A program made the position numbers and the translations under genes. Shown here piece after piece: positions 25,589-27,144 of a DNA stretch of 30,849 nt; positions within the stretch are counted from its first letter, which is position 1; each line of letters opens with the position of its first letter. The notes below the pieces were generated by a model. It did not search any database. It was not told where the DNA came from and worked only from the letters and a program-made list of their open reading frames with translations. This DNA is from a virus. Where the stretch lies: positions 1 through 30,849 of IMG/VR virus record IMGVR_UViG_3300036715_002612; one strand, written 5' to 3'.

Positions 25589-25626
25589 GCCTCCCCCTCC
25601 AGGGAGGTGGGGCTGGAGGGGGAGGC
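25589..25626 (-). other. Strong leader hairpin between late promoter and terminase genes
   Basis: A perfect 14-bp stem (GCCTCCCCCTCCAG at 25589-25602, CTGGAGGGGGAGGC at 25613-25626) has a ten-base loop. It lies about 20-60 bases into the predicted late transcript and upstream of terS. There is no U-tract. It may be an intrinsic pause, attenuator or antitermination site, or it may end readthrough from the replication block. Confidence 0.7.
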
Positions 25627-25652: not shown

Positions 25653-25681
25653 AATATAGGGCTCGATGCCCAGCCTGTCAA
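25653..25681 (-). promoter_or_regulatory. Sigma-70-type promoter for the structural/lysis block
   Basis: On the minus strand TTGACA (25681-25676) and TATATT (25658-25653) are separated by 17 bases, an optimal spacing. The -35 box overlaps the stop codon of the replication gene, whose TGA lies within TTGACA. It sits 100 bp upstream of terS and has the same two hexamers as the early promoter, so host RNA polymerase should serve both. Confidence 0.8.
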
Positions 25682-26979
25682 GTGGCTGCCTGAGCTTGTC
25701 CCAGAACCTCTTCTGGCACGTCTTCCGCGCCAGACCCGAGCGCGAGCATCTCCATCGCCTCCTCGGGGGTTGTTAGTCGTATGCCGGCGGTCATGAGGTC
25801 AGGCAAGATAGACTCCTGCGCCATGAAGAGGGCACCCGCCGGCACCGCCGCCCAAACCTGGCCGTCCAAGAGGCGAAATGGGACCGCTGGGCGGAGGCAG
25901 AGGTCCACTGTCTCCTGTTCGATCTCCCCCTCCTGGATGAGGCGCTCGATTCGGGCGGTGAACTCCAAGGCGGCTTGCGGGTCAGGTCGGAGCGGTTGAG
26001 GTTCAGGGTCTCGCTTCGGTGGAGGGGGCGGCGGTGCAAGGTCTCGATGCCCTCCTACGCGAGCATATATCTCTGCCTTGGTAGGAGTAGGCCTTGGTGG
26101 AGGAGAATTGGCTGGCGCAGGCTTCGCCTGGGAGTAATCATCCTCCCAGCCCATGGCGTGTAGCCATGTGGCTGGGTAGGGGATGTAGGCTCCGCCATCA
26201 CGGGTCCAATCCGGGGAGACCTTCGCTTTCTCGATGGCGGCGAGGATGCGATCCACAAGCTCCTTGGAGGGACGGAGCTGTTTCCATGCTTTCAGGGCCT
26301 GCCCCTTGCTGCGCTTCTTGGGATATGCATCCCAGAAGAGAGCAAAGGCCTCGTCAGAGGCCTTGGGGCCCCCTCCCGCGTGAGCGGGGGGGGATATAGG
26401 GGGGGATATTGTTTTAGTTACGTTATGTTCTGTTATGTTATGTTCCCTAAGGTCCTTATCTTGAGCTGTTATAAGGTCCTTATCCGGAGTTGTTATAAGG
26501 TCCTTATGATGCGCAGTTATAAGGACCTTATCCCGTGCTGTTATAAGGTCCTTATCATGAGCTATTATAAGCTCCTTATCTTGAGCTTCGATAAGGTCCT
26601 TATGATGCGCTTCGATAAGGTCCTTATCCGCGCTTGATGCCCACCTTGAGTGCATGGCGGCTCGACCAGCCATCGCCATCTTAGTGCGCTTTTGGAGTAG
26701 CTCCTCCCGGGCTTGATGCAACCACCGGTTGCGCCTCTGCCCATCGCCCGGGACCTCGTCGAAAGCTCCTTTGATCGCGTTATATAGTGTGCTCATGACG
26801 GTCTTATTCACCCGGAGGATGATGGCGAGCTTTGCAGGGTCGTCGGGGATGCTCCCGTTCTGCCATTGCCACATCAAGAGGAGAAACACGGCGCCCGTCT
26901 CCTCGAGAGTGAGGAAGGCGAATCGCTCATCCGTGAGAAAGTCCGCGGGGTAGATGGGCATGAAGGGGGGTGCTTTCAT
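25678..26979 (-). CDS. DUF1376-type replication initiator with iterons inside its gene
   Basis: The product is 433 residues. The ATG at 26979 is preferred because AGGAGG is six bases upstream and DUF1376 starts right there (PPFMPIYPADFL). An upstream in-frame ATG at 27090 would add 37 residues, but across a strong hairpin. The DUF1376 (YdaU) winged-helix-like region spans about 1-105 (LTLEETGAVFLLLMWQW). A linker of octapeptide repeats (DKDLITAQ type) spans about 116-180. The replication-protein C-terminal region follows (FALFWDAYPKKRSKGQALKAW, then IPYPATWLHAMGWEDD). The last 110 residues resemble a DnaA N-terminal-like helicase-contact domain (tentative). It probably binds the iterons and recruits host helicase, like lambda O. 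Confidence 0.85.
   Translation of the reverse strand: MKAPPFMPIYPADFLTDERFAFLTLEETGAVFLLLMWQWQNGSIPDDPAKLAIILRVNKTVMSTLYNAIKGAFDEVPGDGQRRNRWLHQAREELLQKRTKMAMAGRAAMHSRWASSADKDLIEAHHKDLIEAQDKELIIAHDKDLITARDKVLITAHHKDLITTPDKDLITAQDKDLREHNITEHNVTKTISPPISPPAHAGGGPKASDEAFALFWDAYPKKRSKGQALKAWKQLRPSKELVDRILAAIEKAKVSPDWTRDGGAYIPYPATWLHAMGWEDDYSQAKPAPANSPPPRPTPTKAEIYARVGGHRDLAPPPPPPKRDPEPQPLRPDPQAALEFTARIERLIQEGEIEQETVDLCLRPAVPFRLLDGQVWAAVPAGALFMAQESILPDLMTAGIRLTTPEEAMEMLALGSGAEDVPEEVLGQAQAAT
26406..26446. other. AT-rich stretch adjacent to the iterons (possible DNA unwinding element)
   Basis: It is about 73% A/T in a roughly 60% GC genome and contains repeated GTTATGTT motifs. It directly abuts the first iteron at 26447, as the AT-rich unwinding region abuts the iterons in the lambda origin. 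It is also coding (HNITEHNVTKT region of the replication protein). Confidence 0.65.
26447..26627. repeat. Eight 24-bp iterons with palindromic core (probable replication origin)
   Basis: Cores of the type ATAAGGTCCTTAT begin at 26447, 26471, 26495, 26519, 26543, 26567, 26591 and 26615, exactly 24 bp apart. The core is a 6+1+6 palindrome. Copy 4 has the centre base reversed, and copies 1 and 6 each carry a change. In the core the codons AAG and CTT never vary in their third base, while Ala and Thr codons between cores use different third bases. This points to selection on DNA as well as protein. Twenty-four bp is slightly more than two helical turns, placing the sites on nearly the same face. 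Confidence 0.85.
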
Positions 26980-27035: not shown

Positions 27036-27144
27036 ACTGGGCGAAACGGGTGAAGGCGGATGAGCCCGTCGCGCCGTTCTCAGGTTTCATGCTACCGCCT
27101 TCTCATGCCAGTTCCCGCTGGCCGCCCCGAGGAGGGGCATCCAT

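Follow-up and report, generated by a model that had tools for sequence, protein, structure and literature searches.

The array of eight palindromic repeats found inside a gene of the DUF1376 family very probably provides the iterons of a theta-type origin of replication, located in the gene of its own initiator and bound by the product of that gene. Both binding and firing are inferred, in the absence of data from binding, footprint or replication experiments. The DNA analysed (hereinafter the window) comprises 30,849 bp, positions 1–30,849 of the viral record IMGVR_UViG_3300036715_002612, and is a fragment. It has a GC content of 62% and contains terminase, portal and capsid genes with a tail block, as well as a recombination block encoding an Erf-like annealing protein and an exonuclease. 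The packaging/tail and recombination blocks are apparently all on the minus strand. The gene adjoining the initiator gene belongs with the packaging genes, and neither a helicase gene nor a loader gene was found across the 30.8-kb fragment.

Iteron array and AT-rich tract in the probable initiator gene

The initiator gene (25678–26979, minus strand) encodes a DUF1376 N-terminus, the iteron linker, a C-terminal domain and a Pro-rich extension. Its open frame starts upstream at 27090, and the Met codon at 26979 agrees with the start of the ortholog. The array (26448–26628, not assigned to a strand) contains eight TAAGGWCCTTA cores with a period of 24 bp and encodes the repeated octapeptide DLITAxDK; Tandem Repeats Finder returns a period of 24 and 7.5 copies for the same interval. 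Seven cores are exact, starting at 26448, 26472, 26496, 26520, 26544, 26592 and 26616. The eighth, at 26568, reads TAAGCTCCTTA, with a single mismatch that breaks one pair. The first-pass annotation described eight 24-bp repeats in register, each with a 13-bp palindromic core. The repeats and their register are borne out, but the 13-bp perfect palindrome (ATAAGGWCCTTAT) is present in only six of the eight cores, the exceptions being the outermost copy (26448) and the copy at 26568. The array begins at residue 118, between the N- and C-terminal domains, where the annotation had placed it. No further exact copy of TAAGGWCCTTA was found in the window beyond the array.

The array adjoins an AT-rich tract (26406–26447, not assigned to a strand), which is a candidate DNA-unwinding element. 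The lowest-GC 60-bp and 200-bp stretches of the window begin within or just beside this tract and span the array plus the 42 bp behind it. The AT-rich neighbour of the array was thus correctly recognised as such, although its AT content is 71% over these positions and not 73%. The tract holds an AT-rich 15-bp repeat in two copies, which encode EHNIT and EHNVT (26417–26445, minus strand). A possible degenerate site, AAAGCTCCTTT, is located at 26762–26772 (no strand), approximately where other DUF1376 genes have a pair of sites in the domain-coding part; it was obtained by a relaxed match, is weak and may be due to chance. Cumulative GC skew, suggested earlier as a check, is lowest at 25,600, close to the array; its amplitude is low, and the signal is weak.

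Core and spacer codons of the array behave differently, as the annotation had observed for their third bases. Specifically, Lys is encoded by AAG and Leu by CTT in eight of eight copies each, while the codons between the cores vary freely. Elsewhere in the gene, CTT is used for two of 33 Leu residues (Fisher 5e-7, calculated on tandem copies that are not independent). In copy 5, GAC is changed to GTC, which replaces Asp with Val and leaves the palindrome unharmed, since only the symmetric centre base is flipped. Near-copies of the core 10-mer occur 10 times in the gene, compared with a mean of 5.4 in synonymous-codon shuffles, and none of 60 shuffles reached this number. On this sequence evidence, the array DNA rather than the octapeptide is the object under selection, with the caution that tandem copies do not evolve as independent samples.

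Predicted fold of the probable initiator protein

The DUF1376 domain consists of residues 1–113 (26641–26979, minus strand) and is predicted to adopt a winged helix-turn-helix fold with a long last helix (residues 85–113). Its Pfam score for DUF1376 (PF07120) is 25.7 bits (E 1.5e-5), which does not reach the cut-off of 30.1 bits. The protein aligns with 66 relatives, in which G29 and W39 are invariant, and the predicted fold of the domain matches annotated DUF1376 viral proteins with an E of 1e-7. The whole protein matches the PHROG family 'primosomal protein' (2.7e-27) and also two 'replication initiation protein' families. A Pfam scan of the protein at E 0.1 returned DUF1376 alone, with no lambda O-type initiator and no RepA_N (PF06970). 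No relative in the PDB was found by sequence with the DUF1376 profile.

In the AlphaFold model of the domain (pLDDT 87), long helices come after a winged helix. The structures most similar to it are those of the N-terminal domain of RepA, the initiator of staphylococcal plasmids, one of them from a Rep–DNA complex (RepA structures compared: PDB 4pql, 5kbj, 4pt7 and 4pta). These domains occupy ranks 1–3 and 7 with Z of 7.0–5.8, below Z 8, and other winged helices are close behind. The match is moderate, with Z 7 and no Foldseek E below 0.001.

The C-terminal 'FWDAYPKK...WED' domain (26125–26364, minus strand) is helical and frequent in phage replication proteins; its model (pLDDT 72) has no structural match above Z 3.5. 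The Pro-rich C-terminal extension of about 150 residues (25678–26124) is absent from the ortholog and has no Pfam match. FWDAYPKK-domain proteins of other phages (L004–L031) have unrelated N-termini, and their linkers are often repetitive (TDTDTD, NPNPYPNPYPN). Repeated palindromes were observed in 3 of 21 FWDAYPKK-domain proteins outside DUF1376, so in-gene origins may reach beyond this family.

Repeated palindromes across the DUF1376 family

DUF1376 genes were collected from viral contigs, bacterial genomes and annotated phages, and 151 remained after removal of near-duplicates. For each gene we counted the most frequent palindrome with fixed 4-bp arms and a fixed gap of 0–3 nt, with a threshold of at least three copies. 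This count replaced a test for even-length palindromes, which is blind to odd-length cores such as that of the window. At least three palindromes with the same arms are present in 38 of the 151 genes, including that of the window, against 2.4 expected from synonymous-codon shuffles. In the control, the longest neighbour gene of the same loci, the numbers are 7 of 149 and 5.5 expected. About half of the DUF1376 genes have no repeated site in the palindrome-count test. A gene-blind scan of 150 loci (~5 kb) placed 31 of 34 clusters within the DUF1376 gene, which accounts for 16% of the DNA (binomial 2e-21; the sample includes related phages and is not fully independent).

The arms vary among phages and include AGCA-n-TGCT, TGCA-nn-TGCA, AACG-nn-CGTT, AGCG-nn-CGCT and ATCG-nn-CGAT. 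Sites recur directly behind the domain (nt ~310–390), and many genes also have a pair within the domain-coding part (nt ~165–205). Spacings between neighbouring sites are mainly 11, 12, 22 and 23 bp, which is approximately one or two helical turns. Most of these spacings are not divisible by 3, which puts the sites into different reading frames and rules out their derivation from a peptide repeat. The search proposed in the first-pass annotation, for in-frame palindromic repeats in the linkers of other DUF1376 genes, was strongly positive as to the repeats, but these need not be in frame, the spacings being mostly 11, 22 or 23 bp. The suggested double use of one sequence as peptide repeat and DNA target fits this phage, whose in-frame octapeptide is a special case within the family.

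An AT-rich stretch follows the last site (44% GC compared with 55% gene-wide, p 3e-11), and its GC rank is also lower than at the matching position in DUF1376 genes without detected sites. Several relatives have replication genes as neighbours: the next gene encodes a DnaC-type loader in three loci (L037, L038 and L042, the last from the cultured Pseudomonas phage AH02), a DnaB helicase in L041 and a putative replication protein (ydaV) in L035. One DUF1376 relative carries the annotation 'DNA replication protein O'. As far as the palindrome pattern goes, the same design, with different sites, recurs through this large uncharacterised family.

Other repeats were seen at two loci. In a Kosakonia locus (L168), the DUF1376 linker has an insert that by eye resembles a GIY-YIG/T5orf172-type nuclease domain, with GTAGCTAC palindromes in and around it. 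In L144, a tandem repeat with a 27-bp unit lies in frame in a neighbour gene ~2.1–2.3 kb before the DUF1376 gene and comprises at least 16 GCGG-nnn-CCGC palindromes.

Ortholog with two pairs of sites

A pattern scan of contigs for paired TAAGGWCCTTA identified two DUF1376 genes, on G001 and G003. The G003 protein is the closest ortholog of the window protein (41% identity over 309 positions, E 1e-60), and contig G003 has other genes in common with the window. A DnaB helicase gene lies directly after its DUF1376 gene. The linker of the G003 protein is SDKVVNKDLIKDLNKVVIQHNITKHN, and the octapeptide is missing. The linker DNA has two exact TAAGGWCCTTA palindromes with 12-bp spacing plus flanking degenerate copies, and an AT-rich tract of the same kind (AACATAACATAACTAAAC) is retained. 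The first-pass annotation had named relatives with a conserved octapeptide and a lost palindrome as grounds for refutation; G003 presents the reverse, with the palindrome kept and the octapeptide gone. When the octapeptide was searched for irrespective of codons, only unrelated proteins came up, and no relative that keeps the octapeptide with recoded DNA. Contigs G004–G007, which have paired TAAGGWCCTTA and no DUF1376 gene, were set aside. Exact-pattern matches to the window array in viral contigs were unrelated repeats only, such as one in a collagen-like gene.

In the 56.7 kb of G003, exact TAAGGWCCTTA occurs in two places only, the DUF1376 gene and one noncoding stretch. The noncoding pair (21153 and 21176, 23-bp spacing) is located at the head of the early operon, ~7.5 kb from the DUF1376 gene. 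This intergenic pair (L210:4490–4640; L221:12080–12220) adjoins four GTTAAC repeats. By analogy it is a possible second origin resembling SPP1 oriR, and an operator is not excluded.

The position of this pair is what speaks for reading the palindromes as operators for the replication operon, bound by the DUF1376 protein or another phage regulator, with the in-gene copies acting as roadblocks or autoregulatory sites. We consider this reading unlikely, because the clusters of the family are located inside the initiator gene (31 of 34) and not at promoters, and because they adjoin AT-rich tracts and the gene that contains them lies next to genes for a helicase or a loader. The G003 intergenic copy itself, with the GTTAAC repeats beside it, fits a second origin like SPP1 oriR (PMC6316719).

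Relation of the last helix to the type of site

A natural exchange indicates which part of the protein may go with the type of site. The DNAs of L057 and L075 are mostly 80–100% identical outside nt 250–400 and strongly divergent inside. The divergent segment is a single swapped cassette that comprises the domain's last helix together with linker and iterons, and the sites are TGCAnnTGCA in one gene and AGCAnTGCT in the other. In another pair, L175 and L179, a common N-terminus and AACG-type sites are combined with different C-termini, and thus the type of site follows the N-terminal part. When further swaps of the cassette were sought more widely, a single pair was clean; the others listed were less alike or had short, uninformative C-termini.

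In predicting the type of site across all members, the last helix has no significant advantage over the remainder of the domain (642 of 1000 permutations reach the difference), and covariation of the last helix with the site is not significant beyond overall relatedness. The role of the last helix therefore rests mainly on the L057/L075 pair and is otherwise pointed to by single columns only. We give about even chances to the proposal that DUF1376 proteins are a highly diverse group of initiators not recognised before. In this proposal, one contiguous specificity cassette of ~150 bp comprises the iterons and, directly before them, the last helix of the winged-helix domain; swapped in a single recombination event, as between L057 and L075, it would yield a new origin together with its reader.

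The lack of a significant family-wide covariation, together with the lack of binding data for the DUF1376 protein, leaves some room for the sites being bound by another phage protein or a host factor, with the DUF1376 gene as a mere carrier. This is improbable, as the type of site varies between phages and, in L057/L075, changes along with the last helix, and as the clusters lie in the DUF1376 gene and are rare in its neighbours. It is scarcely tenable that the array is merely a matter of the protein, an octapeptide linker that was duplicated in tandem so recently that its copies still have the same DNA: the repeat is in frame, the octapeptide is regular and such arrays can arise by tandem duplication, but the fixed codons are those of the cores and not of the spacers, Asp gives way to Val where the palindrome survives, the ortholog retains the palindrome and loses the octapeptide, the sites of other members are mutually out of frame, synonymous shuffles destroy the signal, and an octapeptide with recoded DNA has so far not turned up in any relative.

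Proposed model for initiation at the array

We propose a mechanism for an array that serves as the origin bound by its own initiator. The winged helix-turn-helix of DUF1376 probably binds each TAAGGWCCTTA as a dimer, a stoichiometry that is inferred, and the last helix of the domain would help to set site specificity. Occupancy of the eight sites would give a nucleoprotein complex and lead to melting of the AT tract at 26406–26447. The C-terminal domain may then bring in the replicative helicase, directly or via a loader; melting and helicase recruitment or loading are, like origin activity, inferences only. Because the iterons are located in the interdomain linker, sites can be gained or lost in multiples of 3 bp without harm to the protein.

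Under this proposal, DUF1376, which many phages and prophages encode and whose function is not known, would have a specific and testable task, the recognition of origins. Since each gene carries its own target, the sites can be read from the sequence, and the family offers paired protein and DNA data for learning a recognition code. The L057/L075 exchange suggests that replication specificity, and hence compatibility with other replicons, can be changed in one step.

Comparison with known systems

That an origin can lie within the initiator gene is well established from lambda O, SPP1 gene 38 and the RepA_N plasmids. What appears to be new, as far as the literature found shows, is the occurrence of such a design in a large uncharacterised family in which the palindromes differ between lineages, sites lie in both domain and linker, and a cassette has been exchanged in nature. 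Our literature search, which left subscription papers mostly outside its scope, found no paper characterising DUF1376 in replication, and an earlier description is not excluded.

In lambdoid and Stx phages, the iterons and the AT-rich tract of ori-lambda lie in the middle of the initiator gene O; Stx phages have six iterons and an O protein longer by 13 residues (PMC7466680). The window likewise has iterons and an AT-rich tract within its initiator gene, and several DUF1376 relatives have the initiator beside a helicase-loader gene. However, the Pfam scan detected no sequence relation to the O family. The sites differ as well, with 11–13-bp palindromes, a 24-bp register and eight sites in the window and spacings of 11, 12, 22 and 23 bp in relatives, and many DUF1376 members have sites also inside the domain-coding part. 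The parallel with lambda O drawn in the first-pass annotation thus holds for the architecture, but not as the sole parallel, because SPP1 gene 38 and the RepA_N plasmids are also among the closest systems.

SPP1 gp38 has two binding regions, oriL in its own gene 38 and oriR between genes (PMC6316719). Similarly, there is one in-gene cluster in the window and, in the ortholog phage G003, a second, intergenic cluster ~7.5 kb off. No sequence relation to gp38 was shown, and the second cluster was seen in G003 only, not in the window fragment. YdaU of the E. coli Rac prophage, which has an active origin, oriJ (PMC3945230), belongs to the same N-terminal DUF1376 family, and its gene is followed by ydaV; in contrast to the window, the YdaU gene of Rac-SA53 has only two phased sites.

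In RepA_N plasmids, the Rep boxes are central in rep and encode a linker (PMC5703833). RepA of pSK41 and pTZ2162 has a winged-helix N-domain and semi-palindromic sites, and in pPR9 the N-domain and origin module are exchangeable (PMC5703833, PMC7145576). The window repeats also lie in linker-encoding DNA, between the DUF1376 and FWDAYPKK domains, although here binding is inferred, and the DUF1376 N-terminal domain is also a predicted winged helix, with moderate similarity (Z ~6–7). Unlike RepA_N, DUF1376 is a separate sequence family, its C-terminal domain has no match to the RepA CTD, and its hosts are phages and prophages, in our sample mostly of Pseudomonadota. Judged from sequence alone, the window system was not found to fall into either the lambda O or the RepA_N family; by architecture, it belongs with lambda O, SPP1 gene 38 and the RepA_N plasmids.
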